Positions 24,341-43,237 of a DNA stretch of 43,487 bases are shown here, in pieces (the stretch's first letter is position 1; each line of letters opens with the position of its first letter). This stretch comes from Acidobacteriota bacterium (GTDB lineage Bacteria; Acidobacteriota; Holophagae; Holophagales; Holophagaceae): contig JACPUT010000019.1 of NCBI GenBank assembly GCA_016192145.1, forward strand, positions 1-43,487, given 5' to 3'. A program made the translations under genes and the position numbers. Below the pieces are notes generated by a model. The model ran no database searches. It was not told the origin of the DNA and saw only the letters and a list, made by a program, of their open reading frames with translations.

Positions 24341-24351
24341 GGCGCCAGGGT
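24326..24351. terminator. Possible shared hairpin at convergent gene ends
   Basis: ACCCTGG (24326-24332) pairs with CCAGGGT (24345-24351) around a GCC-TGA-GGC inner stem. It bridges the 10-bp gap between the converging XRE-receiver and serS genes. There is no T run on either side, so termination is only suggested. Confidence 0.35.
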
Positions 24352-25622
24352 CAGCGGATCACCTCTAACCCGCCCAGGTAGGGCCGCAGGACTTTGGGTA
24401 CGACCACGCTGCCATCGGCCTGCTGGTAGTTCTCCAGGATGGCCACCCAGGTGCGGCCCACGGCGAGGCCGCTGCCGTTGAGGGTGTGGAGGAACTGGGG
24501 CTTGCCCTTGGCCTCGGCGCGGAATTTGAGATTGGCGCGGCGGGCCTGGAAATCGCCGAACCAGCTGCAGGAACTGATCTCTCGATAGGTGGCCTGGGAG
24601 GGCAGCCACACTTCGAGGTCGTAGGTCTTCTGGCTGCTGAAGCCCATGTCGCCCGTGCAGAGCAGCACGCGGCGGTAGGGCAGTTCCAACGCTTCGAGGA
24701 TGGCCTCGGCGTCGCCCGTGAGGCGCTCCAGCTCCGCTTCCGCCGCCTCGGGCGTGGTGAAGGTGACGAGCTCCACTTTGTGGAACTGGTGCTGGCGGAT
24801 GATGCCGCGGGTGTCGCGGCCGTAGCTGCCCGCCTCGCTGCGGAAGCAGGGGGTGAAGGCGCAGTGGCGCAGGGGCAGCGCGGCGCCCTCCAGGATCTCG
24901 TCGCGGTAGAGGTTGGTGACGGGCACCTCCGCCGTGGGGATCAAATAGAGCTTCGAATCGCCGTGGGGCACGTGGAAGAGGTCCTGCTCGAACTTGGGCA
25001 GCTGGCCCGTGCCGTACATGCTCTCCGCGTTCACGAGGTAGGGCGTGATCACTTCCGCGTAGCCCGCCGCCGACTGGCGCTCGAGCATGAAGTTGATGAG
25101 GGCCCGCTCCAGCTTGGCGCCGGCGCCCTTGAGCACGGAGAAGCGCGCGCCGCTCAGCTTGGAGGCGCGGTCCAGATCGAGAATGCCGAGGCTGGTGCCC
25201 AGATCCACGTGGTCCTTGGGCTGCTCGATGGCGGGGATCGTGCCCCATCGCTTGATCTCCACGTTGGCGTGTTCATCGCGCCCGTTGGGCACGGAGGCAT
25301 GGGGCGCGTTGGGCACGGCGGCGAGGAAGGATTGGAAGGCAGCCTCCGCTTCCTTCTCAGCGGCTTCCAGGGCCTTCATCTGCTCCCCCACCTTGCGCTG
25401 GGCCTCGATGAGGTGGCTGGCATCTTGCTTCGCCCGCTTGAGCTGGGCCACTTCATCGGATACGCGGTTGCGCTCGGCCTTGAGGGCCTCCGATTCCTGG
25501 ATCACCTGGCGGCGGGCCGATTCCAGGCGCTGGTAGCCCTCCCGGTCGAAGGCATAGCCCCGCTCCGCGAGGCGGGCCACCACGGCGTCGAGATCGTTGC
25601 GAAGGCGTTGAAGGTCGAGCAT
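24351..25622 (-). CDS. serS: Seryl-tRNA synthetase
   Basis: The 423 residues are the usual bacterial length. The N-terminal coiled-coil arm that grips tRNA-Ser covers about 1-110 ([20 protein letters not shown] through heptads such as [18 protein letters not shown]). The class II catalytic domain shows motif 2 ([23 protein letters not shown]) and the family block [15 protein letters not shown], followed by the [20 protein letters not shown] motif 3 region. It charges tRNA-Ser with serine in the cytoplasm. The ATG at 25622 has GGTGGA directly upstream; longer in-frame starts lack a site and family similarity. Confidence 0.95.
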
Positions 25623-25726
25623 TCCACCAGGATAGGGCGTCTGTCGGGGAGAACGCATGCGCACAATAAATTTTGCTTTTTCACAATTCATGAAATAAAA
25701 ATAGTCATTCGCCCCCGGAGGGGACC
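25623..25726. promoter_or_regulatory. AT-rich divergent promoter region between serS and the CapA gene
   Basis: About 45 bases (25668-25708) are strikingly AT-rich (AATAAATTTTGCTTTTTCAC, ATGAAATAAAAATAG) in an otherwise GC-rich window. This is where promoters for serS (minus) and the CapA-like gene (plus) must lie. No hexamer pair is convincing enough to name. GGAG (25717-25720) is the ribosome-binding site of the CapA-like gene. Confidence 0.45.
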
Positions 25727-27049
25727 ATGACCCGAACCCATTTGGCCCCGCGGGCCGCGGCCCTCCTCGCCCTGCTCACCCTTCCCTCCTTCGGCCAGGG
25801 CGCCCAGGCCCTCCCCCCGGACGACTCCCGGGCCGTCCACCTGCGCCGCCTACGCCCGCCGGAGCCGGCCGAGCGCATCGATTGGGCGGCGCGCATCACC
25901 GACCTCCTGAAGGAGGAACCGGGGGACCTGGTCGTCACGGCCGTGGGGGACATGATCTTCAACCAGCCCATCACCCACCTCAAGGATCCCGAACGGGCGG
26001 GCCTCTTCCGGATCATGCAGGAGGCCGACGTCGCCTACGGGAACCTGGAGTTCTCCCTCAACGACCGCCCGGACCTCCAACGGCCCTTCTACAACTTCCG
26101 CGCGCCCCGGGAATTCCGATGGGAGGTGGCCCGCACGGGCATCAACCTCGTGAGCCTGGCCAACAACCACGCCCTGGATTTCGGCCCCGAGGGATTGCTG
26201 GAATGCCTGAAGGCGCTGGATCACGCCAACATCACCTACGCGGGGGCCGGCCCCACCCTGGCCGCCGCCCATGCCCCCGGCCGCACCGAACTCGCGGGCC
26301 ACAAGTCCTCGGCCGCCCTGCTCTCCTACCTGCGCTACTGGACCTCGAAGTACCGCAGCAAGGATTCCGGCGCCCCCTCCCTCGCCACCATCGATCCCGC
26401 CGCGATCCTCGTGGCCCGGGACGGCAAGGCCGAGAAGGTCGAAGGTCCTCTGGCGTCCGATGTCGGCGTCATGGAGGACGACATCCTCCTGGCCCGGCGG
26501 AAGTCGGACCTCCTGCTGGTTGCCCTCCACAACCACGACGTGACCCACCACCGGGCCTACGGCATCCAGGACCGCACGCCCCCCAACGAGGAGCTCATGT
26601 ACCGGCGCGCCCTCGAGGCCGGGGCGGACATGGTGATCGGCACCGGCCCCCACGTGCTGCGCGGCATCGAACTCCACCAGGGGAAGCCCATCTTCTACAG
26701 CCTGGGCGATTTCATCTACCAGTACCGCACCCCAGAGCGCATCCCCGCGGACGTGATCCATCAACGGGACATCGAGATGGCGAAGGTGCCCAACACTTCC
26801 GTATGGGACCGCCGGGACTCCCAGGAGGTGATGGAGACCGTGATGGTGCGCATGGTCCACCACCAGGGAAAGCTGAAGCGGATCCAGCTCCTGCCCATCA
26901 CCATTGATGACGAGGGCCCGCTCTACGGCGTCCCCCGTCTCGCCTCCACCCGCCGGGGCGCCGAGATCCTGGAGCGCCTCCGGAAGCTCTCGGAGCCCTA
27001 CGGCACGCGCATCGTCACCAAGGGCTGGTACGGGGAAGTGCAGCTCTAG
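25727..27049 (+). CDS. CapA-family secreted metallophosphatase-fold protein (PGA_cap)
   Basis: This 440-residue protein has an export signal (hydrophobic [23 protein letters not shown]). The body is the CapA/PgsA fold: VTAVGDMIF with the first metal-binding Asp, [39 protein letters not shown] in place of the usual HWGxEY motif, [16 protein letters not shown] and [11 protein letters not shown]. CapA proteins take part in poly-gamma-glutamate capsule synthesis or release, but many relatives have no capsule and unknown substrates. It ends 10 bp from the end of the YfcC-like carrier gene, which is convergent, so it is next to but not in the cyanophycin operon. Acting on an extracellular polyamide would fit the area, but this is speculation. 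Confidence 0.82.
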
Positions 27050-27061
27050 GAGCCTGCCTTC
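27035..27061. terminator. Possible bidirectional hairpin between convergent genes
   Basis: GAAG-TGCAG-CTC-TAG-GAG-CCTGC-CTTC is an imperfect inverted repeat (one bulge per arm) covering the stop codon of the CapA-like gene and the last codons of the convergent carrier gene. It lacks a T run. It may serve both genes, since only 10 bp separate them. Confidence 0.3.
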
Positions 27062-28505
27062 AGATGGGTCCCCAGTGGAAGAACAGCGTGGGCGGCACCA
27101 GCAGCAGGAAGGCCAGCCCCATGAGGATCAGCATCAGAGGCAGGAACCACCGGGCCCACCGTTCCCAAGGGATCCTCGCCGCCCCCAGCACCCCCATGGT
27201 CACCGCGCTGGTGGGCAGGATGGGGTTGATGAGTTCCGAGAGCGCGAAGCTGTACACGCAGGTCTGACGGGTGACGCCCACGAGGTCCGACAGGGGTGCC
27301 AGCACGGGCATGGTGAGGGCCGCCTGTGAGGTGCCCGAGTGGATGAAGAAGTTGATGCAGCACTGCAGGAGGAACATCACCTGCGCCGTGACGGCCTTCG
27401 GCAGCACGCGAATGGCGCCCGCCCCGTGGAGCAGGAGCGTGTCCATGATGCGGGCATCATTGGCGATCACCAGCAGCGCCCGCGCGCAGGCCACGATGAG
27501 CACCACGCCCACCATGTCCTTCGCGCCATTGACGAAGTGGCGGGCCAAGGTGCTCGGCCCCATCCGCGACACCACCCCCACCACGAGGCCCATCCCCAGG
27601 AAGAGGGCGCCGATGGGCTCCAGGTACCACTGGTGCCGCAGCACGCCGTACACCAGGAGCACCAGGGCTCCCAGGAAGGCCAGGAGGGACAGGACGTGGG
27701 AGGCGCGCCAGGCATCCTCCCCCGGAGCGGGGGACTGCACCTCGCGCGCCAGGTCGAGGTCGCGCACGAGGCTCAGCTCCGGGTTCCGCTTCACCTTGGC
27801 TGCATAGATCATCACGTAGGCGATCACCACGCTGGTGGCCACCACCCAGGCCAGGGCCCTGTAACCGAGCCCCGAATAGATGGGCACTCCCGCGATGCCC
27901 TGGGCCACGCCCACGGTGAAGGGATTGAAGAAGGCGCAGGCGAAGCCCGCCGCGGCGCCGAGGAAGGGGATGGCCACCCCCACGAGGGAGTCGTAGCCCA
28001 GGGCCCGGGCCAGGGCCACGAAGATCATCACGAGGGGGATGAGCTCCTCCGCCATGCCGAACACGGCCCCCGCCAGCGAGAACACGGTCATCAGCACGGG
28101 GATGAAGAGCAGCTCCAGAAGGCGGTGGCGCCGCACGTGCACGGTGAGCCGGCGGATGCCCTGCTCCACGGCGCCCGTTTCCTGGAAGATGCCAAAGGCC
28201 CCGCCGATGATGAAGAGGAAGACGATGAGCCCCGCCCCTTCCAGGAAGCCCTTGATGGGCGCGAGCAGGAGGGTCTGCAGCCCCAGGTAGATCTTGGGAA
28301 GGTGCTGATAGGTTCCATCCACCGGCACTTTGACGTGGCCGCCATCGGGCAGCACCTTGTCGATGCGCTGGAATTCCCCCGAGGGGACGAGCCACGACAG
28401 CACCAGCACCAAAGCGATGAGCGCGCCCACCAACACGAGGGTGTGGGGCATCTTCATTCCCCGGGCCGGAACCTCGGGAGCGGGGGCGGTGGGGGTTGGG
28501 CTCAT
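27060..28505 (-). CDS. YfcC/DcuC-family carrier, last gene of the putative cyanophycin operon
   Basis: This 481-residue inner-membrane protein has about 12 hydrophobic segments. Family signatures are FLFIIGGAFGIFQETGAVEQGI, GMAEELIPLV, and near the C-terminus FFIHSGTSQAALTMPVLAPLSDLVGV, then SELINPILPTSAVTMGVLG. YfcC/DcuC proteins (ion transporter superfamily) carry C4-dicarboxylates, basic amino acids or small peptides; the substrate cannot be read from sequence. The ATG overlaps the stop of the isoaspartyl dipeptidase by 4 bp, so the two are translationally coupled and the cargo is most likely an aspartyl compound (beta-Asp-Arg, aspartate or arginine). Confidence 0.82.
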   Translation of the reverse strand: MSPTPTAPAPEVPARGMKMPHTLVLVGALIALVLVLSWLVPSGEFQRIDKVLPDGGHVKVPVDGTYQHLPKIYLGLQTLLLAPIKGFLEGAGLIVFLFIIGGAFGIFQETGAVEQGIRRLTVHVRRHRLLELLFIPVLMTVFSLAGAVFGMAEELIPLVMIFVALARALGYDSLVGVAIPFLGAAAGFACAFFNPFTVGVAQGIAGVPIYSGLGYRALAWVVATSVVIAYVMIYAAKVKRNPELSLVRDLDLAREVQSPAPGEDAWRASHVLSLLAFLGALVLLVYGVLRHQWYLEPIGALFLGMGLVVGVVSRMGPSTLARHFVNGAKDMVGVVLIVACARALLVIANDARIMDTLLLHGAGAIRVLPKAVTAQVMFLLQCCINFFIHSGTSQAALTMPVLAPLSDLVGVTRQTCVYSFALSELINPILPTSAVTMGVLGAARIPWERWARWFLPLMLILMGLAFLLLVPPTLFFHWGPI

Positions 28506-29668
28506 GCGTAGATTCCCTTGGCCAGCAGTTTGCCCGCCTTCATCAGGGGGCGCCCCTTGGCGATCACCGACCGCACCTCCAGGCTCTGGGGATCCAGCAG
28601 CACCACGTCCGCATCGAGGCCCGGGGCCAGGCGCCCCTTCCCGCGCAGCTTCAGGATGTGCGCCGGGTTGGAGGTGATCACCCGCAGGGCCGTGGCCAGG
28701 GGGATGCCCTCTTCCTGGATGGCCTGGCGAACCGCCGCGAAGAGGGAGGTCACCCGGCCGATGGAGATGCCCTTCAGGCGTCCCGCCTCATCCCAATCCG
28801 GCAGGCTGCCCTGGCCATCGGAGGTGAAGGTGATGCGGCCCGGATCCACTCCGGCTTCCAGGATCCGGCGCAGGGCCTTGGCGCAGGGTACCTCCCCCGC
28901 CTGTTGGTAGGACGGAAGGGTGGAGGTGGTGAAATCCACGTAGCCCCCGGCCTGGGCGTAGGCGATGCCCTCCTCGAAGAGGTCCGCATTCCGGTTGATG
29001 TGGGTGGGGAGCATCTGGGTGGGGGGGACCTCCGTCTCCATGAGCATGCGCCGGAGGTAGTCGAGGCCCCGGGCCCCATCGCCCAGGTGGATGTGCACCA
29101 AGCCCGCCTTGCCCGAGAGCATGCCGCCCCGGCGGGCCTCACCCACCAGCCGGGCGAAGGCCTCGAAGGTGGGCTGACTGGAGCGGTGATCCGAGAGGGC
29201 GATCTCCCCGGCTCCGATCACCTTGTCCAAGTAGAGGAGGTCCTCTTCCAGGGAAGGCAGCATGGTGCGCAAGGGCATGCCGTAGGAACCGGAGTAGACG
29301 TAGGTGCTCAGCCCCTCCTCCTCCAGCCCCTTGGCCTTGGCCAGGAGCCCGGGCATGTTCCGTGTGAGCCCGTCCGTACCCAGGCAACCCACCACCGTGG
29401 TGACGCCACCCGCGATGGCATCCGTGAGCGGCAGCTCCGGGGTGCGGGTGGCGAAGCCCCCTTCCCCGCCGCCGCCCATGATGTGGACGTGCCCATCGAT
29501 GAAGCCAGGCACCGCCAGGAGGTTCCGTCCCTCGATCACCTCGCAGTAGCGCCTCGGAACGCGGATGTCCGGCTCCATGCGGAGGATCCGTCCACCGCCC
29601 AGCAAGAGGTCGCAGCGCCCCCCCGGCTCCGGGCTGTAGACGTCGACGTTTTTGATGAGGAGCAACAT
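28502..29668 (-). CDS. iadA: Isoaspartyl dipeptidase (beta-aspartyl peptidase)
   Basis: This 388-residue cytoplasmic amidohydrolase cuts beta-aspartyl (isoaspartyl) dipeptides. DGHVHIMGGGGEGGF holds metal His 60 and His 62 and the substrate-contacting Glu 69; IALSDHRSSQPT, VHIHLGDG and THINRN supply later metal and substrate residues, and FTSDGQGSLPDWDE the catalytic Asp. Length and motifs agree with IadA. There is no signal peptide. GGAG precedes the ATG at 29668 by five bases. In an operon with a cyanophycinase its obvious job is to hydrolyse beta-Asp-Arg, the cyanophycinase product, to aspartate and arginine; repair of isoaspartyl peptides is the alternative. Confidence 0.9.
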   Translation of the reverse strand: MLLLIKNVDVYSPEPGGRCDLLLGGGRILRMEPDIRVPRRYCEVIEGRNLLAVPGFIDGHVHIMGGGGEGGFATRTPELPLTDAIAGGVTTVVGCLGTDGLTRNMPGLLAKAKGLEEEGLSTYVYSGSYGMPLRTMLPSLEEDLLYLDKVIGAGEIALSDHRSSQPTFEAFARLVGEARRGGMLSGKAGLVHIHLGDGARGLDYLRRMLMETEVPPTQMLPTHINRNADLFEEGIAYAQAGGYVDFTTSTLPSYQQAGEVPCAKALRRILEAGVDPGRITFTSDGQGSLPDWDEAGRLKGISIGRVTSLFAAVRQAIQEEGIPLATALRVITSNPAHILKLRGKGRLAPGLDADVVLLDPQSLEVRSVIAKGRPLMKAGKLLAKGIYA

Positions 29669-29694
29669 GGAAACTCCAGGCGAGACGGGCGGAT

Positions 29695-31170
29695 TCAGAG
29701 GACGCGGGACACGGGCAGGCCCGCGCCCGGGGCGGCCCACGCCCGGAATCCGGGGTAGGCGTAGAGGCCGTAGAGGAGGCAGGGTTCCAGCACCTGGATG
29801 GCCCGGCGGGCGAGGTCCTGGTCCAGGTTCACCAGGAGGGTGCCCACGGGCAGCAGGGCCTCCACCGCCGGTTGGCGCTCCACGATCTGGCGATCCTTGT
29901 AGCGCTGGTAGAGCGGATCGTAGGGCTCTTCAAGCCGCAGGAGTCGCACCGCCTCCACCTGGGCCCGCTCCGGGGACGCCAGGGTGCGGTAGACGATCCC
30001 CTGGGCCGTCAGCACCGGGAGGAACCGCGCAGCCGCTTCGGGAGCGATGGCGTAGGCCCGGGGCGTGGGCACGCTGCCCTTCACCACCAGATCCCGCATG
30101 ACGTTGGGCGTGGGCACTTCCAAGGTGCGCCCCGTGGCCACCTCCCGCACCTTCACCCGGTGCACCCGGCCGCCCACGTTGCCCCAGAAGGTGTTGGTGG
30201 CGATGAAGGCAGGCAGAGGCTCCCGCCGGGCTCGCTCGGTCAACGCGCGGATGCGCGCGCGCCAGGCCGGGGTCCCGATCAGGTGGCGGTAGAGGATCCG
30301 GTAGCCCTCCACGCGCTCCCCCAGGTCCGCCTGGGGATTCGAGGCGCGGTGCCGCACGCCGGATTCGATGATGAAGGAGAGGGCGCCGAGGGTGCCCATG
30401 CCATTGCGGCCGTCGTCCACCTCCGAGGTGGAGGGGCGGATCTCTTCTTCGGGAGGGGGACCTCCCACGGAGTAGCGTTGGTAGGCGTGCCCTGCTTTCG
30501 CCTGCAGGGGCGCCGCCGCGGCCACCGCTGCGAGGCCCGCGGCCTTCAAGTACCCGGGGATGAGCGGATGGTTGGCCGCGTCCATGGTGATGAGGGGCCA
30601 GGCTTCCCAGCCGCGCTGGGCGTAGGCCTCCCCATCCCGCCCGAACTCGTGGCTGTCCACGGCCAGGTGGGGGCGCACCCGGCGGGCCACGCGGTGGAGG
30701 GCCTGGGTCTCCGGCTGCGCCAGCAGCAGATGATCGCGGTTCAGGTCGGCGCCCGTGGCGGTGACGCGCCGGTGGGCTTCGGCGCCATCGGGGTTGAGCA
30801 TGGGCATCAGGTAGAGATCCACATCCTCGGGCAGGCGCTCGGGGTGTTCCGCCACCTCCCGGATCAACGTGAGCTGGGCGTCCTTCCCGGCCACCTCATC
30901 GCCGTGTTGCTGGGCGTAGAACAGCACGCGGAACCGGGCCTTGGCGCCCCCGCGGTTCAACCGCACGAGGAATATCTTCCGGCCCTCGGCGGTGCGCGCC
31001 TCCTCGGCGACGGTGATGAAGCCCGGCTTCGCCACCCGGTCGAGGAAGGCGGCCATCTCCCCATAGGACACGGTGGCGCGAAAGGCGCGGGGTTCGCGGG
31101 GGAAGGGCGCGGAGATCTCCCCCGCCGAGCCGAGGGCGGTGAAGAGGATCAGCGCCGCGAGCGCCTTCAC
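29695..31170 (-). CDS. Secreted M14 zinc carboxypeptidase
   Basis: 491 residues with a signal peptide (MKALAALILFTALGSAG). The N-terminal part is an M14 metallocarboxypeptidase: QQHGDEVAGK gives zinc His 89 and Glu 92, NPDGAEAHRR and TGADLNRDH supply substrate-binding residues, DSHEFG the third zinc His, and FIIESGV the catalytic Glu. About 190 further C-terminal residues have no motif I recognise. M14 enzymes trim C-terminal residues from peptides in the periplasm or outside. It overlaps the cyanophycinase stop by 4 bp, so the two are probably made together and exported. It may trim cyanophycin-derived or other peptides; its exact substrate is unknown. Confidence 0.85.
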   Translation of the reverse strand: MKALAALILFTALGSAGEISAPFPREPRAFRATVSYGEMAAFLDRVAKPGFITVAEEARTAEGRKIFLVRLNRGGAKARFRVLFYAQQHGDEVAGKDAQLTLIREVAEHPERLPEDVDLYLMPMLNPDGAEAHRRVTATGADLNRDHLLLAQPETQALHRVARRVRPHLAVDSHEFGRDGEAYAQRGWEAWPLITMDAANHPLIPGYLKAAGLAAVAAAAPLQAKAGHAYQRYSVGGPPPEEEIRPSTSEVDDGRNGMGTLGALSFIIESGVRHRASNPQADLGERVEGYRILYRHLIGTPAWRARIRALTERARREPLPAFIATNTFWGNVGGRVHRVKVREVATGRTLEVPTPNVMRDLVVKGSVPTPRAYAIAPEAAARFLPVLTAQGIVYRTLASPERAQVEAVRLLRLEEPYDPLYQRYKDRQIVERQPAVEALLPVGTLLVNLDQDLARRAIQVLEPCLLYGLYAYPGFRAWAAPGAGLPVSRVL

Positions 31171-31997
31171 GGGCGGACCGCCCGGGTGCCCAGATCCAGC
31201 GACTGGCCGGCCCGCAGCACGTGGATGCGCAGGTCGCGGAAGGTCCCGTCCGCGCCCTTCATCACCCCGGGGTCGAAGACCATCACCGCGCGCTCGCCCA
31301 CCACCGTCGCCGTCCCATCCTTCACCACCAGGGCGGTGGCCTCGTCGATGCCAAGACCCAGGTGATCCGGATGCTCCATCACCAGGCTGAAGAGGCGATT
31401 CTGGCGGGAGCGGCGGAGGAAGTGCTGGTCCACGATCACGGCGGGCGGCAGGAAGCCCATGCCATCTCGGGTGCGGTAGGCGCCGGGACCGAACTCCGAC
31501 AGCGCCTCCTGCCCGAGCCGATCTTCGCCGGTGAACATGATCCTGGACATGATCGCGGCGCCCGCGCTGGTGCCGCCGATGGCCGCGCCGGCCTCATAGC
31601 GCTCCCTCACGAGGGCCTGTAGGGGCGTGCCCACGATCTTGTCGCCCACCAGGTTCTGATCCCCGCCCGTGAACCAGAATCCCGTGCAGCGGCGAGCCTG
31701 GGCCAGCAGGTCGGGTTTAGACGCATCGCTCCGTTCCCGCACATCGAGGGCGACGCAGCTCAGGCCCGCGGCATCCAGATCCGCCTTCCATTCGCGCAGG
31801 GCCCCCTCGGGATCACTGGTGGAGGTGGGGATGATGCCCACGATCCCGCTGCGGCCCCCGGAGGCCCTGAGGAAGGCGTCCAGGATCTCCTTGGGCATGC
31901 CGCCCCCCCCGACGATGACCAGCGTTCCCTTCGGCGCGAGGGGCGCCGCCTGCGATCCGACACAGGCCAACAGCAGGGCGAGGAGGAGGGTCTTCAT
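31167..31997 (-). CDS. cphB: Secreted cyanophycinase (peptidase family S51)
   Basis: 276 residues. A signal peptide (KTLLLALLLACVGSQA) precedes the S51 fold. Diagnostic motifs are GTLVIVGGGGMP, FWFTGGDQN (109-115), GGTSAGAAIM with nucleophile Ser 144, and FLPPAVIVDQHFLRRSRQNRL, all characteristic of cyanophycinase. The enzyme splits multi-L-arginyl-poly-L-aspartate into beta-Asp-Arg dipeptides. Intracellular CphB lacks a signal, whereas exported forms (CphE-like) serve organisms that eat cyanophycin made by others; the signal here points to the second role. AGGGAATCCC precedes the ATG. It follows the TonB receptor gene by about 70 bp. Confidence 0.88.
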   Translation of the reverse strand: MKTLLLALLLACVGSQAAPLAPKGTLVIVGGGGMPKEILDAFLRASGGRSGIVGIIPTSTSDPEGALREWKADLDAAGLSCVALDVRERSDASKPDLLAQARRCTGFWFTGGDQNLVGDKIVGTPLQALVRERYEAGAAIGGTSAGAAIMSRIMFTGEDRLGQEALSEFGPGAYRTRDGMGFLPPAVIVDQHFLRRSRQNRLFSLVMEHPDHLGLGIDEATALVVKDGTATVVGERAVMVFDPGVMKGADGTFRDLRIHVLRAGQSLDLGTRAVRP

Positions 31998-32065
31998 GGG
32001 ATTCCCTGGAAGCGGAAGCGGGGCGTCCAGGGGCGCCCCGCCACGGGTGGGTCGGGTTGGCAGGA

Positions 32066-34852
32066 TCAGAACAGGAACTTGGCGCCGAGGCGGAAGGTCC
32101 GGGGGGATTCCTGATCGAGAACCATGAACTGCTCGGGGTCGCCGGGGTAGTACCGCTGGACCCGGGAGGTCACCGCGGCATCATTCAGCGCGTTGAACAC
32201 GTCCCCGAACACCTCGAAGGCCTTCTGGCGCCCCATGGTGAACCGGTGGGAGATGCGGAGGTCCAGCAGGCGGCGGGCGTCATAGCTGCTGGCGCCCAGG
32301 GGCTCGATGTTCACGAAGAAGTACTCGCGATTGCCCAGCCGGGGGGTGCGGATGTAGCGGGTGTAGTGAAGGCCGCTCAGGTAGGTGAAGCTGGCGTTCA
32401 GCCGGGTCCCCCAGGGGGTCTTGTAGGAGGTCCGGAGCTTGACCTCGTCATCGTTGAAACCCGGCAGCTTGCCCTCGCCGTTGTACATGGATCCGTACCA
32501 TTCGCGCCCGGAATCATACCCGTTGGACTTGATCAGATTGCCCTTGTTATCAGCCTTCGTGTAGCTGAAGGAGAGATCCCAGTTCTCGGTGAATCGCCCA
32601 TCCAGGGAGAAGGTGGTGGCGGTGTAGGTGCGCTTGGCATCGGGATCGTTGGTGATGAAATAGTCGTGGGGAATCTCATCGATGCCCGTGTTGACCCCCG
32701 GGCGGAAGAAGGTGAGGGTCTCGCCCGTGAAGGGGTTGTCCACGGAGGTCGTGGAAGCCGACAGGGGAAGCCGGTCATAGCGGGCCAGCAGATCCTTGCC
32801 GTTGCGCCGCACGTAACTGACCGCGGCGACCCAGTTCTTGGAGATGCGCTTCTCCACCGCGAACTGGAGTTCGTCGAAGTAGGGATGGCGAACGTTCGGA
32901 TCGAGAGAGCTCTGCTGGGACACGTTGTTCCGGTGGGTCGACGCATCGAAGACGGGCAGCGGGTATTCCGCCAGCGGATTCGCCAGATTGCTCAGGATGA
33001 CCACCTGGGCATCGTCGTAATTGGGCCACCAGAACCGCCGCTCCAGCGGATAGGCGTTGGGGATCGCGCGATCGAAGGAGGCTCCCGAAAGTCCATCGTA
33101 GTAGCGGCCGAAGTGACCCTTCACGGACCAGCTTTTCGCGGCGTCGGGAGTCCAGGTGAAACCGAGTCGCGGGGCCACGGTGTTGGTCTTCCAGAGGTCG
33201 CCGCCCCGGAACTGCTCGAAGCGCACGCCGGGCCGGAGCACCAGCTGGTCATTGACGGTCCAGGTGTCCTGCACGAACACCGTGTTGCGCTTGAGCTTCG
33301 TATCGAAGTCCCATCCACCGCCGACCTGCACGAAATCCGTGTAGACGGTATCGCCATCGGTGAGCGCGTTCAGGGAGATCCCACCGGGATACCAGGTGCG
33401 CTCCTTGTCCCGGGCCCGATCCAGGTCCAGGCCGAACTTCAGCGCGTGGGAGCCAGCGCCGGTGGTCACGAACCAATCCAGGGAGGCCAGCAGCCCCAAG
33501 CGGCTCCGGGTGTTCTCGAAGGCCTCGTAGGCGTTGTTGATCTGCTCGTAGCCGCGGTTCCGTGCGTATTGCGGATAGGCGGGGTTGTCCGGCACGTACC
33601 CATCGATGTACAGGCTGTACGCCTCGCCGTTGTAGGCCTTGTGGTCATCGATGCCGTTGTACCCGCTGGCCCGAAGGGTGAGCACGAGGTTGCTGCTCAG
33701 GGTCTGCAACCACTCCAGGCCGAAGGTGAAGTTGGGGCCGTCCTGCTTCCGGGTGGCTTCCGGCGCCAGCACCCGGGAGGCGCCGCGGTGATCGGTCCGC
33801 ACGGTGTCGTAGTCCAGGAACATCGATAGCGTGGCATCGGGCAGGGCCTGATAGGTGAGGTTCACCATGGCGCGGGGGGTGGATCGCTTCTCCGGGACCG
33901 GGCTTCCCACCGGGGTTCGCTCGATGGAGATGGCCTCGAGGGACAGGAAGTACCAGAGCTTGTCCTTGATGAGGGGACCGCCCAGGTTCAGGGCCAGATC
34001 CGAAGCGGTATCGCCGACCTTCTGCACCATGTCCCCGGTGCCCGAGGGGTCGGAGACCGCGCGCTTCGCCGCCCAGCTGTCCTTTTGGTAGTAGCCGGAG
34101 AGGCTGCCAGAGAATTCGTTGCCGCCCTTCTTGATCACGCCGTTGAAGTAGGCGCCGGAGAACCCGCCGAATTCGGCCCCGGCGCCGATGCCGCCGATCT
34201 GGACCTCCTCGAACCAGTCCGGATTCACCTGCACCCAGGCCTGCCCCGCGGAGGAATCCCCCACGTTGATGCCGTTGATCAGGTAGGCGTTGGCGTTGTC
34301 CCGATCCCCGCCGAAGCCGGAGGCGGACACTCGGGCGCCGGAGGAGACGGTCAGATTGATGCCGGGCGTCAGGGCCGCGATCCCCGCGATGTCACGCTTG
34401 ATGGGCAGGTGTTCGATATCCTCCGCCCGGTAATTGCGGGTGGTGGTTCCCGAGGCCATGTCCTCCGCGCCCACCCGGCCCCTCACTTCCACGGTGGCCG
34501 CGGCTTCGGCCGCCAGGCGGATATCCACCGTCGTGGTTTTGCCCAGCTCCGCGCTCTCGCTCAGCTTGCGGACCGGGAACCCCTTCGCCTCCACCGTGAT
34601 CGTGTACTTGCCCGGTGGCAGCATGGGGATGCGGTAGCGGCCATTCTCCCCGGTGACCACACTGCGCATGCCCCCGATGAGGGAGGGCGAGGCCACGCGG
34701 ATCGTGGCGCCCGCGATGGCCTTGCCCGAGGGGTCGGTGACCGTGCCCGTGAGGGCGGAGGTGGTGGTCCCCTGAGCCAGGAGGGCCGCGGGGGCCGCCA
34801 CGAGGGCCAAAAGGACGGAACTGTACCTGGGACTGCCAGAGCAACGGGCCAT
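32066..34852 (-). CDS. Oar-like TonB-dependent outer-membrane receptor
   Basis: About 928 residues. A signal peptide (SSVLLALVAAPAALLAQG) is followed by a carboxypeptidase-regulatory-like beta-sandwich (ALTGTVTDPSGKAIAGATIRV ending in TTTVDIRL), then a plug domain (EHLPIKRDIAGIAALTPGIN, NAYLINGINVGD), then a long barrel of aromatic-rich strands ending in RTFRLGAKFLF with the C-terminal Phe. This is the Oar/SusC-like type common in Acidobacteriota. The ATG at 34852 has GGAGG four bases upstream; longer starts run into the promoter. It should import a polymer fragment or peptide with TonB energy. Position immediately before a secreted cyanophycinase suggests cyanophycin or its dipeptides, by inference. 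Confidence 0.88.
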   Translation of the reverse strand: MARCSGSPRYSSVLLALVAAPAALLAQGTTTSALTGTVTDPSGKAIAGATIRVASPSLIGGMRSVVTGENGRYRIPMLPPGKYTITVEAKGFPVRKLSESAELGKTTTVDIRLAAEAAATVEVRGRVGAEDMASGTTTRNYRAEDIEHLPIKRDIAGIAALTPGINLTVSSGARVSASGFGGDRDNANAYLINGINVGDSSAGQAWVQVNPDWFEEVQIGGIGAGAEFGGFSGAYFNGVIKKGGNEFSGSLSGYYQKDSWAAKRAVSDPSGTGDMVQKVGDTASDLALNLGGPLIKDKLWYFLSLEAISIERTPVGSPVPEKRSTPRAMVNLTYQALPDATLSMFLDYDTVRTDHRGASRVLAPEATRKQDGPNFTFGLEWLQTLSSNLVLTLRASGYNGIDDHKAYNGEAYSLYIDGYVPDNPAYPQYARNRGYEQINNAYEAFENTRSRLGLLASLDWFVTTGAGSHALKFGLDLDRARDKERTWYPGGISLNALTDGDTVYTDFVQVGGGWDFDTKLKRNTVFVQDTWTVNDQLVLRPGVRFEQFRGGDLWKTNTVAPRLGFTWTPDAAKSWSVKGHFGRYYDGLSGASFDRAIPNAYPLERRFWWPNYDDAQVVILSNLANPLAEYPLPVFDASTHRNNVSQQSSLDPNVRHPYFDELQFAVEKRISKNWVAAVSYVRRNGKDLLARYDRLPLSASTTSVDNPFTGETLTFFRPGVNTGIDEIPHDYFITNDPDAKRTYTATTFSLDGRFTENWDLSFSYTKADNKGNLIKSNGYDSGREWYGSMYNGEGKLPGFNDDEVKLRTSYKTPWGTRLNASFTYLSGLHYTRYIRTPRLGNREYFFVNIEPLGASSYDARRLLDLRISHRFTMGRQKAFEVFGDVFNALNDAAVTSRVQRYYPGDPEQFMVLDQESPRTFRLGAKFLF

Positions 34853-34881
34853 CACGCCTCCGAAGGTGGGGAAAGGGGGAT

Positions 34882-34935
34882 TGAGCAAAAATTTATGCTC
34901 ACCGAACAATAGGGTCAAGTTTTTTTTCATTTTGG
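34882..34935 (-). promoter_or_regulatory. Promoter of the TonB receptor operon with overlapping palindrome
   Basis: Read on the minus strand, TTGACC (34918-34913) and TAAATT (34895-34890) are separated by exactly 17 bp and form a sigma-70-type promoter, with an A-rich tract (34920-34935) upstream that resembles an UP element. TGAGCAAAAATTTATGCTCA (34882-34901) is a 20-bp near-palindrome that covers the -10 box. It is the obvious operator for the RpiR-family regulator encoded just upstream; that link is inference. Confidence 0.65.
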
Positions 34936-35005
34936 CCGTGGGCAGCACCCTCCAGCCCCGCCCTTAGGCCTGGACTCGGCTCCATTCCCCCCAGGGGGAC
35001 CCCGC

Positions 35006-35848
35006 TCAGCTCCGGGCGAACTTCTGCTGGGCCACCCGCTCCTCATCGCGGAGCTTGCTCAGGAATTTCTCCGGCGATTGGCTGGCGATGGTGGTGGCGA
35101 TGGCGTGAGCGATGACGCCGAAGGCGGCGAGGCTGTGCGAGAAGAGGAGGTTCTCACCAGGGATGGGCAGCGCCAGGGTGGCCGTCTTGGCCAGGGTGGA
35201 ACCGAGGTTGTCCGTGAAAGCCAGCACGGGCACCCCCCGCTTGCGGGCGTAGGCCGCCGCATCCAGGGTCTCCTGGGTGTAGGGGGTGATGCTGATGGCC
35301 ACGAGGAGGTCGCGGCTTTCCAGGAGGCCCACCTGGGTCGCGAAGTCCACGGGATTGCCCTCCATCACGGGCAGCCCCAGGCAGACGAGGAGGTAGGCCA
35401 ACTGCTTGGCCATGAGCGCCGAAACCCCATCGCCGAGGACCACGCGCAACCGGGCCTCCCGCACGAGCTTCACCGCCCGCTGCAAGTGGGGTTCTTGGAT
35501 GGACTGTACGAGGGTTTCGATGTTCCGCACATCCCGGCGGGCCACTTCCAGTAGAGTGGTGGAAGCCTGTGTGGGGGCCTGGAACAACTGCTCGCCGCGG
35601 CCGTAGTTCTTCTTCGCCGCGTTCACCAGTGCCTTGCGCATCTCCAGGTATCCGGAGTACTCCAACTTCTTGGCGAAGCGCACCACCGTGGCCACGCAGG
35701 TGTGGGATTTCCGCGCCAACTCCTCCACACCCCAGAGGGCCGCCTCGTTCATGTTCGCGATGAGGCAGTCGGCGATCTGCCGCTGGCTCCGGGACAGGTC
35801 CTGGGCGGCATGGAGGCGATTCAACAGGGGGGTCTTGGGGGCGGACAT
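35006..35848 (-). CDS. RpiR/MurR-family transcriptional regulator
   Basis: This cytoplasmic regulator has about 280 residues. An N-terminal HTH_6 domain (about 1-75: RSQRQIADCLIANM, LWGVEELARKSHTCVATVVRFAKKLEYSGYLEMRKAL) is followed by a SIS (sugar isomerase-like) ligand domain (about 125-260) with VVLGDGVSALMAKQLAYLL, DLLVAISITPYTQETLDAA and VPVLAFTDNLGSTLA. Most relatives sense phosphosugars, but the SIS pocket can bind other ligands. The start at 35848 gives MSAPKTPLLNRLHAAQD; the frame runs further upstream only through the antisense-like part of the asparaginase. It lies between the asparaginase and TonB receptor genes and probably controls the receptor promoter. Its ligand may be a breakdown product such as aspartate or beta-Asp-Arg. 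Confidence 0.85.
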   Translation of the reverse strand: MSAPKTPLLNRLHAAQDLSRSQRQIADCLIANMNEAALWGVEELARKSHTCVATVVRFAKKLEYSGYLEMRKALVNAAKKNYGRGEQLFQAPTQASTTLLEVARRDVRNIETLVQSIQEPHLQRAVKLVREARLRVVLGDGVSALMAKQLAYLLVCLGLPVMEGNPVDFATQVGLLESRDLLVAISITPYTQETLDAAAYARKRGVPVLAFTDNLGSTLAKTATLALPIPGENLLFSHSLAAFGVIAHAIATTIASQSPEKFLSKLRDEERVAQQKFARS

Positions 35849-35886
35849 CGGATTCAGTTTAGGGGATCCACCTTCCCCGTGGGGCC

Positions 35887-36900
35887 TCAGCTGTGCGGCC
35901 AGATTCCGGCGGGCGTGGGCTCTCCGGCCCATGCGGTGCCGAAGGCCGCTCGCACCTCCGTCGTGCCCTTCCCGGCACCCAGGAGCAGACCCAGCTTCGC
36001 CAGGACGGCCCAGCGGGTATGGAGCCCCGCGCTGATGGCGCCGAAGCCCTCCAGTTGGCGGCCCAGTTCGTAGGCGGCGAGATCCACGCGGCCTTCGCGG
36101 CACTGGGTGGTGATGACCACGGGCAGGGCGCGGGTCGCGGCATCCGCCAGGAAGGCGCGCAGGTCCGGCCGTTCCATGGGCAGGTTGCCCGCGCCGTAGG
36201 CGTGGATCAGGACGGCCTTCACGCCCTCGGGGGCCGGGCGCCAGGCCATGCCGGGGTGGGGCGTGACGACGTGGATGTCCAGTTCCAGGGCGGCGCCCAG
36301 GCCCGGCGGCACCTGGCGGGCAAAGCGCCCCGCCTCCGGGTGCAGTTCGATGTCGGCGCCGATCTCCGCCAGGGGCGCGAGGTTGGGGCTGTCGAAGGCC
36401 TGGTATTGGTGCACGCTCAGCTTCTCGCTGGCCACCCCGCGCAGCCACACGGTACCGAAGCAGATGCCCACCTCCGCCACGCCCCGGGTGGCGAGATCCA
36501 CGGCATTCACGAGGTTGCCCCGGGCATCGCTGCGCACGAAGGCCAGGGGCCGTTGGCTGCCCGTGAGCACCACGGGCTTGCCCAGGTCCGCGAGCAGGAA
36601 GCCCAGCACGGAGGCCGTGAAGGCCAGCGTGTCCGTGCCGTGGACGATGACCACGCCTTCGCACCCGGCGCTGCGCTGCCGCACCAGGCGCGCCAGCTCC
36701 AGGATGTCCGCAGGCTCCGCCGTGGCGCTGTCCTGGTTGTAGGGCACCTCCAGATCGAAATCAGCCAGATCCCGCAGCTCCGGCACGCGTTCCAGCAACC
36801 CCTCGAGGAAGGGCCCGGGGGCGAGCCCCGCGGGCGAGCCCTGAGGCGTCATGCCCAGCGTGCCGCCGGTGTGGACGAGGAGGATGGAGGGCTTGCCCAT
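35887..36900 (-). CDS. ansA: Type I L-asparaginase
   Basis: 337 residues without a signal peptide, so cytoplasmic. VHTGGTLGM holds the first catalytic Thr, and VIVHGTDTLAFTASVL the second Thr-Asp pair; GSQRPLAFVRSDARGNLVNAV is a conserved family block. It hydrolyses asparagine to aspartate and ammonia. It lies 38 bp upstream of the RpiR gene on the same strand, at the head of the block that ends in isoaspartyl dipeptidase and the carrier. That placement fits aspartyl-compound catabolism, although it may be an independent asparagine enzyme. Confidence 0.88.
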   Translation of the reverse strand: MGKPSILLVHTGGTLGMTPQGSPAGLAPGPFLEGLLERVPELRDLADFDLEVPYNQDSATAEPADILELARLVRQRSAGCEGVVIVHGTDTLAFTASVLGFLLADLGKPVVLTGSQRPLAFVRSDARGNLVNAVDLATRGVAEVGICFGTVWLRGVASEKLSVHQYQAFDSPNLAPLAEIGADIELHPEAGRFARQVPPGLGAALELDIHVVTPHPGMAWRPAPEGVKAVLIHAYGAGNLPMERPDLRAFLADAATRALPVVITTQCREGRVDLAAYELGRQLEGFGAISAGLHTRWAVLAKLGLLLGAGKGTTEVRAAFGTAWAGEPTPAGIWPHS

Positions 36901-37062: not shown

Positions 37063-37701
37063 TCAGGAGTGCAGCACGGCCTTCACTTCATCGAAGCCCT
37101 GATCCGAAAGGCAGCTCACCACCACGGCGCACTGGCCGGGCTGGCTGGAGGGCAGCACGATCTCGCCGACGTAGCAGCCATCGGCGTCCGTCTTCCCGTT
37201 CACGAGGCCCACGGCCTTTTTGAGGCTGGAGACGAGTTTCACGGTGACTTCCGCGCCGGGGACGGCCTTCTGGCTTCCGCAGAGGCGAGCCCGCACCTGG
37301 AATCGGAACACCTGGCCGAAGATGGGGCGCAGGGGCTGATCGAGGACCAGCTCCAGGGTGTCCACCTCGCCCTCCTGCTGGAGGTATTCGAGGATGGCCT
37401 GGTCCAGGGGGCGGCCGCCGAAGGCCTGCTGCTCCAGGAGATCCGGCGGGGTGGGATCGTACTTGCCGTTCTTGATGTCCCGGATGATGGCCTTGTGCTG
37501 CTCATCCATGCGGGTCTGAAGGAGTTCCTCGTTCATCCCGCTGGCGATCATATCCTCGTAGGAACTGCGGAAGCTATCCAGGATCTCGCCGCCCACGTAG
37601 ATGAGCGTCTCCACCTTGGGATTGCCGATGCCCTTGTCCTCCGTCTGAACGTGGAAGACGCGGTTGCCGTGACGGACATCGGTGTTATAGCCGGTGATCA
37701 T
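37063..37701 (-). CDS. Conserved hypothetical protein with C-terminal beta-sandwich-like domain
   Basis: 212 residues, no signal peptide or membrane segment. The N-terminus (MITGYNTDVRHGNRVFHVQTEDKG, then PKVETLIYVGGEIL) looks like a conserved family I associate with Acidobacteriota and relatives, but no function is known to me. A middle helical part ends in TPPDLLEQQAFGG. The C-terminal 80 residues (VPGAEVTVKLVSSL, GLVNGKTDADGCYVGEIVLP) resemble a carboxypeptidase-regulatory or transthyretin-like sandwich. AGGAACC precedes the ATG. It follows the receiver protein gene by 35 bp on the same strand, so the two are probably one operon and may work together. Confidence 0.72.
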   Translation of the reverse strand: MITGYNTDVRHGNRVFHVQTEDKGIGNPKVETLIYVGGEILDSFRSSYEDMIASGMNEELLQTRMDEQHKAIIRDIKNGKYDPTPPDLLEQQAFGGRPLDQAILEYLQQEGEVDTLELVLDQPLRPIFGQVFRFQVRARLCGSQKAVPGAEVTVKLVSSLKKAVGLVNGKTDADGCYVGEIVLPSSQPGQCAVVVSCLSDQGFDEVKAVLHS

Positions 37702-41619: not shown

Positions 41620-42296
41620 TGCCAGCCCAGGCACTCGGGTGGGCCGGCATCGTCGGTCACACGTCGCTCCTGCTCCCGCCTCTGGTCTTCGGCCGGGACC
41701 CCGCCCTTTCCATGCACCGCTGGGCCCGACAGATCCAGCCCGTGCTCGGACTCGAGGTGACGATCGAGGGCGCCCTCGACCTCCACGCGCCCCTTTGGGC
41801 CGCCAACCACCTCTCCTGGGTGGATCCCGTGATCCTCATGGGCCTGCGCCCCATGGGCACCGTGGCCAAGGGGGATCTCGCCCGCTATCCCCTCATCGGC
41901 CGCTGGGCCCGCAAGGCCGGGCTCCGCTTCGTCGAGCGCCACGACCCCGCCAGCCGCGCCGCCGCCCTGGCGGCCTTCGCCCAGGATCTGCGATGCGGAC
42001 GCCCCATGCTCCTCTTTCCCGAAGGCACCACCACCCGCGGCGAGGGCCTCGCCCCGCTGAACCCCGGCGGCCTGAGGGCGGCCTGGGAGCTGGGTCTGCG
42101 GGTGCAGCCCCTGCGCCTCTCCAGCCCCGCCACCCACTATCCGTGGACCGGGGACGAGACGCTGCTGCCCCATCTGCGCACGCTGTTCGCCACCCGCACC
42201 CCCGTGTCCGTCGAGGCGCGGCCCTCCCTGGCCCCGGCCGACTTCTCCACGCCTGAAGCCTGGCTTCACGCCTTCTCGGAAGCCCTTGCCCCATGA
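41619..42296 (+). CDS. PlsC-like 1-acyl-glycerol-3-phosphate acyltransferase family protein
   Basis: 225 residues. NHLSWVD gives the catalytic HX4D motif (His 64, Asp 69), FPEGTTT (133-139) the phosphate-binding motif, and PLIGRWARKAGLRFVERHD the central block. A short hydrophobic stretch near the N-terminus should hold it to the inner membrane. PlsC enzymes add the second acyl chain to form phosphatidic acid; this short form could also acylate another lipid, such as an ornithine lipid (OlsA-like). It is coupled to the GNAT gene upstream and overlaps the arginase-like gene downstream by 4 bp, an uncommon arrangement. Confidence 0.82.
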   Translation: MPAQALGWAGIVGHTSLLLPPLVFGRDPALSMHRWARQIQPVLGLEVTIEGALDLHAPLWAANHLSWVDPVILMGLRPMGTVAKGDLARYPLIGRWARKAGLRFVERHDPASRAAALAAFAQDLRCGRPMLLFPEGTTTRGEGLAPLNPGGLRAAWELGLRVQPLRLSSPATHYPWTGDETLLPHLRTLFATRTPVSVEARPSLAPADFSTPEAWLHAFSEALAP

Positions 42297-43237
42297 ACGC
42301 CGATCACCTGCTGGAAGGCCTGCGCACGGGCCTCGTCTCCTTCCTCGGTTTGCCCCTCGCGCTGGAGCCGCGCCCGGTCCCCGGCGTCGTCCTGGGCGCC
42401 CCCTACGATGGGGGCGTGCTCAACCGCGCCGGCGCGCGCCTCGGCCCCTGGGCCCTGCGCCAGGCGACCATGGGCCTGGGCCGCATGCCCATGCCCCAGC
42501 GCCTCCAGGGCGGCGAAGAGCATCAGGAACCGCTCGGCGTCGCCGCCGTGGATTGGGTCGATGGCGGCAACATCCCCACCCGCCCCTTCCACATGACGGA
42601 GGCCCTCGACGCCGTGGAGGGATTGACCTCCGCCTGGATCGCCACCGGGGCCCGCACCCTCATGCTGGGCGGCGATCACCTGCTCACCCTGGGTGCGCTG
42701 CGCGCCCACGCCCGCACCCATGGCCCCTTGGGCCTGCTGCATCTGGACGCCCATCCCGACGCGGGGCGCGGCGAGCTGTGGGGCACGGACCACCACCATG
42801 GAACCTGGCTGCGCGACGCCCTGGAAGAGGGCCTCGTGGATCCCAAGCGCACCGTGCAGGTGGGCCTGCGCGCGCCCCGCTTCGAATCGGATGAACTCGC
42901 CTTCCTCGCGGATCGCGGCGTGCGCATGTGGACTCCCGGCGACCTCCTCGATCCCCGCCTGGCCTCGCAGCTCCTCGGCGACCTCGCCCGCGTGGGCCAG
43001 GGGCCTGCCTACGTGAGCGTGGACCTCGACGTCCTCGATCCCGTCCACGCCCCCGCCGTGGCCGAGCCCGTGCCCGGCGGCCTCAGCGTGCGCGAGGCCA
43101 TCGCCATCCTGCGCCCCATCCACCGCTGGGAGCGGCCTTGGGTGGGCGCCGACGTGATGGAGCTGGCCCCCACGCTGCCGGGTGCGGACGAGAGCGCGCG
43201 CGCTGGGGCACATCTGGCCTTGCACCTGCTCGGTTAG
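42293..43237 (+). CDS. Arginase/agmatinase (ureohydrolase) family protein
   Basis: 314 residues, cytoplasmic. All manganese-binding signatures are present: LGGDH (His 129), HLDAHPD (Asp 152, His 154, Asp 156) and SVDLDVLDPVHAP (Asp 244, Asp 246). The family hydrolyses a guanidino or formimino group: arginine, agmatine, guanidinobutyrate or formiminoglutamate. The GGLSVREAI segment favours the agmatinase branch, without certainty. Its ATG overlaps the PlsC-like stop by 4 bp. With cationic amino acid permeases and an arginine-releasing cyanophycin system elsewhere in the window, arginine or agmatine breakdown would be sensible, but it lies in a different transcription unit. Confidence 0.87.
   Translation: MNADHLLEGLRTGLVSFLGLPLALEPRPVPGVVLGAPYDGGVLNRAGARLGPWALRQATMGLGRMPMPQRLQGGEEHQEPLGVAAVDWVDGGNIPTRPFHMTEALDAVEGLTSAWIATGARTLMLGGDHLLTLGALRAHARTHGPLGLLHLDAHPDAGRGELWGTDHHHGTWLRDALEEGLVDPKRTVQVGLRAPRFESDELAFLADRGVRMWTPGDLLDPRLASQLLGDLARVGQGPAYVSVDLDVLDPVHAPAVAEPVPGGLSVREAIAILRPIHRWERPWVGADVMELAPTLPGADESARAGAHLALHLLG

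Follow-up and report, generated by a model that had tools for sequence, protein, structure and literature searches.

The window analysed here, a whole contig (C19) of 43,487 bases from the 3.8-Mb genome of a soil or sediment acidobacterium of the family Holophagaceae, carries a cluster of genes that is probably a movable cassette for cyanophycin utilisation (a reading to which we assign a probability of roughly 0.7) and that most likely lets its host import and digest cyanophycin of foreign origin. Cyanophycin is the nitrogen-storage polymer of cyanobacteria; it is rich in nitrogen and is set free on the death of cyanobacteria and other producers. The initial annotation of this DNA had named foreign cyanophycin as the substrate. 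Scavenging is supported, because the locus encodes a cyanophycinase that is exported and retains its signature residues, together with a TonB receptor and a regulator of its own, because the genome lacks the synthetase CphA, and because the synteny is conserved among relatives; that the scavenged material is cyanophycin is something that we infer.

Gene families were assigned from Pfam and NCBIfam profile scores against curated cut-offs, which, together with a map of open reading frames, bore out all seven genes that had been listed between 27060 and 36900, with their families and their common direction on the minus strand. The boundaries, by contrast, had to be redrawn, since the asparaginase at one end falls outside the unit and a PGA_cap gene at the other had been omitted. 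The unit comprises an RpiR/MurR-family protein with HTH_6 and SIS domains, the putative regulator of the locus (35006..35860); an Oar-type TonB-dependent outer-membrane receptor matching CarboxypepD_reg, Plug, TonB_dep_Rec and OMP_b-brl_4 (32066..34852); an exported cyanophycinase of peptidase family S51 (31167..31997; TIGR02069); an exported M14 metallocarboxypeptidase (29695..31170; PF00246); IadA, a cytoplasmic beta-aspartyl (isoaspartyl) dipeptidase (28502..29668; TIGR01975); and a YfcC/DcuC-family inner-membrane carrier (27060..28505; PF03606, 311 bits), all on the minus strand, plus a gene on the plus strand, convergent to yfcC, for an exported PGA_cap/CapA-like protein (25727..27049; PF09587). 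The Sec-type signal sequences of the cyanophycinase, M14 and PGA_cap proteins were judged by eye, without a predictor.

The cyanophycinase scores 164.2 bits against TIGR02069, over the curated equivalog cut-off of 126.6, and phmmer aligns it with the solved Synechocystis enzyme (3en0) at an E value of 2.5e-32. All nine active-site positions checked in the alignment match 3en0 (Q101, S132, D172, Q173, H174, R178, R180, R183, and E201) and are kept in nearly all relatives as well, out to other phyla. These positions, chosen after the structural papers, include the nucleophile Ser, the Gln/Asp/Gln/His residues, and the three Arg of the CphB substrate site; the R.R..R motif is missing from the S51 relative 6nqc in the printed alignment.

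As the initial annotation had it, the enzyme is exported, its N-terminal signal sequence being evident by eye, and there is no cyanophycin synthetase: a scan of the genome, which is 97.97% complete, gave 47.7 bits as the best TIGR02068 match, where the cut-off is 850. For comparison with relatives we used 77 genomes of the family and 396 of the phylum, and mapped 32 loci of the exported type from five genera. A cyanophycinase over the cut-off is held by 38 of the 77 family genomes, in two score groups. Enzymes of about 240 bits have no signal sequence and, in the examples examined (L059-L063), lie beside CphA1 (1095 bits, over the cut-off, in the member that was scanned), together with a short CphA-like protein and frequently IadA, an arrangement of ordinary storage turnover. 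Those scoring 145-187 bits are exported cyanophycinases. Turnover of the cell's own cyanophycin would accord with the association of CphA1, cyanophycinase, and IadA in some family members, but for the window it is rejected by the absence of CphA, and the window enzyme has a signal sequence and a TonB receptor, whereas the CphA-linked enzyme of relatives is signal-less. We regard this alternative as largely refuted and very improbable. The storage and scavenging versions co-occur in the family and, in G047 and G029, within a single genome; among the storage loci of genera g6 and g3 (L059-L063), IadA accompanies the signal-less cyanophycinase and CphA1 in the g6 members.

A search for synteny in other Acidobacteriota recovered the core of receptor, cyanophycinase, M14, and IadA in about 31 Holophagaceae genomes of five genera, and a gene order that recurs so widely is far beyond chance. 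Across the 32 mapped loci, the receptor lies upstream in 31 (the remaining one is at a contig end), M14 is present in 31 and IadA in all 32, while YfcC occurs in all but one of the five genera, contig permitting. Variants are found as well. In genus g7 (L056 and L057), the genes for RpiR and an exported S51 enzyme of CphE-like type stand divergently to those for receptor, IadA, and YfcC, with no M14. Other Acidobacteriota show the order receptor, cyanophycinase, PGA_cap, with genes for a PepT-like M20 peptidase, YfcC, M14, a MenC-like protein, and M28 nearby. The combination of an outer-membrane receptor, an exported cyanophycinase, and YfcC extends to other phyla; in Bacteroidales (L111, L120, and L124) a SusC-SusD pair comes first, and after it a PepT-like M20 peptidase, a cyanophycinase of lipoprotein type, YfcC, M14 (31-32%), and a MenC-like racemase. 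Apart from these, tandem pairs of cyanophycinase-like S51 genes were seen in L125, L126, L131, L133, L140, and L144, mostly metagenome-assembled genomes (MAGs) of Planctomycetota, and in a MAG titled Bacillota (L092), whose public label is probably wrong, the locus is of Holophagaceae type and matches L046 from the window's family. In genus g4 (L039 and L044), the genes for the alpha and beta subunits of lysine 5,6-aminomutase stand directly upstream of the locus (in L039 they score 804 and 361 bits, over their cut-offs), neighbours that might suggest a substrate cyanophycin containing lysine.

The genomic site supplies a further view of the unit. The whole block is bracketed by asnA, a type I asparaginase gene (35887..36900, minus strand; Pfam/NCBIfam), and serS (24351..25691). 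The usual arrangement, in most genomes inspected and in the same-genus G054 (L228), has serS directly downstream of asnA on the same strand; the block thus occupies the asnA-serS site, the two genes being neighbours in the same-genus relative. The asparaginase, to which the initial annotation had assigned the supply of aspartate, turns out to be a flanking housekeeping gene. An orthologue is present in 70 of the 77 family genomes, some of them without any cyanophycinase, and in closed genomes it lies far from the cyanophycinase locus (0.36 versus 2.93 Mb in G018; 0.24 versus 2.60 Mb in G011). Its family-wide presence, its usual serS neighbour, and its occurrence in G054, a genome only 76% complete that shows no cyanophycinase match, rule it out as a member of the locus. 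A gene at 37063-37701 on the minus strand, encoding a conserved protein with no Pfam match, stands beside asnA-serS in G054 and near asnA in several other family members.

The PGA_cap gene, which ends 10 bp from yfcC, lies inside this bracket and accompanies the locus in other genera and families, and we therefore count it as a member. Seventeen other Holophagaceae loci have it downstream, and it comes directly after receptor and cyanophycinase in more distant Acidobacteriota of other families (L192, L194, and L216). Its product scores 159 bits against PF09587 and 122 bits against NF038314, far under the cut-off of 700 for the latter. The block from RpiR to PGA_cap appears to move as one unit. 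Its GC content (67.7%, against 68-70% in the flanks) gives no sign of recent foreign origin, and no obvious repeat was seen by eye at the asnA-serS junctions.

The catalytic set of the M14 enzyme is complete (H89, E92, R135, N144, R145, H174, and E269) and invariant. It scores 52.8 bits against PF00246, over the cut-off, and its AlphaFold model (mean pLDDT 87) adopts the classical carboxypeptidase fold over residues 19-309, with Z scores of 22-25. No structural match is clear for the C-terminal region, which is about 180 aa long; modelled alone, this region reached a moderate pLDDT of 74.5 and gave no Foldseek match under E 0.001, which is no proof of a new fold. Full-length orthologues form a sharp class, scoring above 580 bits when the next match scores 139, and occur in 28 of the 396 phylum genomes. 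A cyanophycinase over the cut-off is present in 27 of these 28 genomes versus 82 of the 368 without M14; outside the family, the counts are 9 of 10 versus 89 of 357 (hypergeometric p = 2e-5), where all these figures take genomes as independent and leave kinship uncorrected.

IadA scores 505.8 bits against TIGR01975 (cut-off 331.25); its likely start is at 29668, and it is kept downstream of M14 in relatives. YfcC adjoins cyanophycinase in several phyla. Its nearest named model is PRK11588, a putative basic amino acid antiporter, which it matches at 363.4 bits, under the equivalog cut-off of 500, so that the assignment is to membership of the DcuC superfamily (PF03606) only. An M28 peptidase gene lies between yfcC and the PGA_cap gene in most relatives checked; genus g9 has none, and it is missing from the window. 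In both locus copies of G045, a gene for an exported C45-like autoproteolytic acyltransferase/hydrolase is placed between iadA and yfcC (oriented positions 13259-14479 in L065 and 13215-14414 in L076).

Because of these protein families and the known two-step pathway of cyanophycin degradation (PMC10206079), we propose the following route. The TonB receptor would bind foreign cyanophycin, as polymer or fragments, and move it across the outer membrane, and the exported cyanophycinase, in the periplasm or outside the cell, would cut the poly-Asp backbone to beta-Asp-Arg dipeptides. YfcC may then bring the dipeptide, or free Arg, through the inner membrane into the cytoplasm, where IadA would split beta-Asp-Arg into Asp and Arg, with RpiR presumably controlling expression. 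For M14 and the PGA_cap protein we infer additional roles: M14 most likely frees Arg or Lys from isopeptide side chains or oligopeptide ends in the periplasm, and the PGA_cap protein, like the M28 peptidase of relatives, may act on the same material at some further step. The arginine released could go to ureohydrolase-family enzymes or to an arginine-deiminase-like protein. Three ureohydrolase-family genes in the genome, one of them in the window, are candidates for its use, as is an arginine-deiminase-like gene that scores below cut-off. The ureohydrolase gene in the window, of the agmatinase subfamily, is at 42293-43237 on the plus strand, some 5.4 kb away from asnA, and scores below its cut-off at 186 bits.

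A variant of this route, compatible with it, would make M14 the main beta-Asp-Arg hydrolase in the periplasm, with YfcC importing free arginine and IadA clearing leftovers. It would fit the PRK11588 match of YfcC, though that match is under the cut-off, the carboxypeptidase B structures among the top VIA-align rows, and the conserved acidic residues E250, D252, and D253 (in A2) ahead of the catalytic Glu. On the other hand, no Holophagaceae locus of this type lacks IadA, not even L064, which has no M14; PF00246 is the family over its cut-off, whereas the aspartoacylase family PF24827 reaches only 22.3 bits (cut-off 25); and carboxypeptidase A and B types tie in Z score as fold matches. The cyanophycin dipeptide hydrolase is not prominent in the fold-match lists, which counts neither way. 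We consider this division of labour possible, at somewhat less than even odds.

Several observations weigh against cyanophycin as the dedicated substrate. IadA and its like are promiscuous even within cyanophycin clusters, as noted in PMC10206079, and no aspartase over the cut-off was found in the genome. Genus g9 has no YfcC; M14 is absent from one relative (L064) and occurs in others without an adjacent cyanophycinase (L190, L197, and L198). The partners of some relatives, where M14 is joined with M28, M20 PepT-like, and MenC-like racemase genes, suit general peptide use, and the Bacteroidales clusters resemble broad peptide catabolism. The locus could then serve the general scavenging of isoaspartyl or Asp-rich peptides from damaged protein or necromass through a chain of exported and cytoplasmic peptidases (S51, M14, M28/PGA_cap, and IadA), with cyanophycin at most one substrate. 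Against this stand the S51 enzyme, which carries the full cyanophycinase signature and scores over the curated cut-off, the strong tracking of cyanophycinase by M14, and the g7 loci, in which RpiR, receptor, IadA, and YfcC accompany a CphE-like S51 enzyme in place of this cyanophycinase, a swap that we count in favour of cyanophycin. General peptide scavenging is accordingly, in our estimate, unlikely, and use of foreign cyanophycin remains the preferred reading.

The receptor is the variable part of the cassette. Its likely start in the window is at 34852, where GGAGG precedes the ATG of MARCSGS..., in agreement with the MAR.SG N-terminus conserved in the 20 loci compared; no SusD-like partner was found in the window. 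In genus g3, the enzymes are mostly 75-90% identical, but the receptors are of several types, down to 36-43% identity between types, and in the pairs L043/L076, L047/L050, and L073/L074 enzymes that are 88-90% identical accompany receptors only 48-50% identical. The reverse is seen between g9 and g3 (L054/L067), with receptors about 78% identical and enzymes only 63%. In the concatenated enzyme tree, the g9 rows form one fully supported clade; the receptor tree intersperses the five g9 rows with those of g3, and their union in one clade, a grouping taken from taxonomy and not from the tree, is rejected (p-AU 3.6e-45). The differences are spread across the whole mature protein. The sequences thus indicate that the receptor is swapped between genera at a constant position while the enzymes stay put. 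Pressure from phages or bacteriocins, or different forms of the polymer, are plausible drivers of this exchange.

A sigma-70-like promoter of the receptor operon, TTGACC-N17-TAAATT (34890..34918, minus strand), was identified by a motif scan, which found 1 site versus 0.1 expected, and by comparison with relatives; the element AAACTTGACT...GCATTACTTTTT stands between rpiR and the receptor gene in the genomes compared, whatever the receptor type. Because of this conserved promoter, the locus is not simply one operon. Upstream of rpiR and the receptor gene, the promoter was all that was seen, with no inverted repeat clear by eye. RpiR itself, on contigs reaching that far, lies upstream of the receptor in the Holophagaceae loci other than those of genera g4 and g9, and is present in most of genus g3; it is near cyanophycinase and a TonB receptor also in L211 and L215 and in L099, L100, and L123, MAGs of Bacteroidota and Ignavibacteriales.

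To our knowledge, the uptake of cyanophycin by its consumers has barely been characterised, and we know of no outer-membrane receptor for cyanophycin that has been proven. The locus, compact and conserved, combines a receptor with two exported hydrolases and a carrier and provides a testable parts list for this uptake. It also brings in M14 and PGA_cap as candidate enzymes so far unstudied, and its varying receptor beside constant enzymes amounts to a natural experiment. More broadly, and tentatively, the locus may represent a portable polypeptide-utilisation system: a fixed enzyme cassette whose receptor is repeatedly exchanged in place between genera, as an escape from phages or bacteriocins or in response to polymer forms. 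Such a system would involve a new exported M14 family and, as its partner, a PGA_cap/CapA-like protein, both taking part in cyanophycin breakdown, and its counterpart in Bacteroidales would be of SusCD type.

The type of locus is not without precedent, although the initial annotation had thought it undescribed. The term "cyanophycin utilization locus" was introduced by Ben Hania et al. in 2017 for the Bacteroidetes strain L21-Spi-D4, with cyanophycinases, iadA, and a transporter but no cphA, and Sharon and Schmeing reported that, of 52 genomes encoding cyanophycinase and isoaspartyl dipeptidase without CphA1, 45 have the two in a cluster, often alongside transporters (both in PMC10206079). The window locus has the same clustering of cyanophycinase, isoaspartyl dipeptidase, and transporter in a genome with no synthetase; it differs from the Ben Hania locus, as the citing paper describes it, in its Oar-type TonB receptor, RpiR, YfcC, exported M14, and PGA_cap and in belonging to Acidobacteriota. 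A TonB-dependent receptor beside a cyanophycinase, with cyanophycin as predicted substrate, was noted in 2012 in Citromicrobium sp. JLT1363 (PMC3400609), where the passage on this pair reports only the adjacency and mentions no M14, RpiR, IadA, or YfcC. Within the same phylum, Ca. Sulfomarinibacter, of the class Thermoanaerobaculia, was described in 2021 as having secreted cyanophycinases, Sec-exported and with no CphA, and an isoaspartyl dipeptidase in one MAG (PMC8528874); the passages dealing with these enzymes describe no receptor-linked locus. A family of cyanophycin dipeptide hydrolases, annotated as M14/aspartoacylase, is likewise an M14-type zinc hydrolase linked to cyanophycin genes (ref 49 of PMC10206079), from which the window M14 is set apart, by description, through its membership of PF00246, its export, and its C-terminal region of about 180 aa. 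According to a 2024 paper, streamlined Holophagaceae lack cyanophycinase, in contrast to the remainder of the family.

The literature searched, in which subscription journals were thinly covered, describes neither this exact set of genes nor the M14 family or the exchange of receptors. What appears to be new is this composition, the full-length M14 family that tracks cyanophycinase, the SusCD version in Bacteroidales, and the exchange of receptors between genera. Like the SusCD polysaccharide-utilisation loci, the window locus unites an outer-membrane receptor, an exported depolymerase, an inner-membrane carrier, a cytoplasmic finishing enzyme, and a regulator; it differs in its probable polypeptide substrate and, in Acidobacteriota, in having no SusD. 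The analogy to such loci, already drawn in the initial annotation, is strengthened by the Bacteroidales, where a true SusC-SusD pair stands with a lipoprotein-type cyanophycinase, YfcC, and M14.

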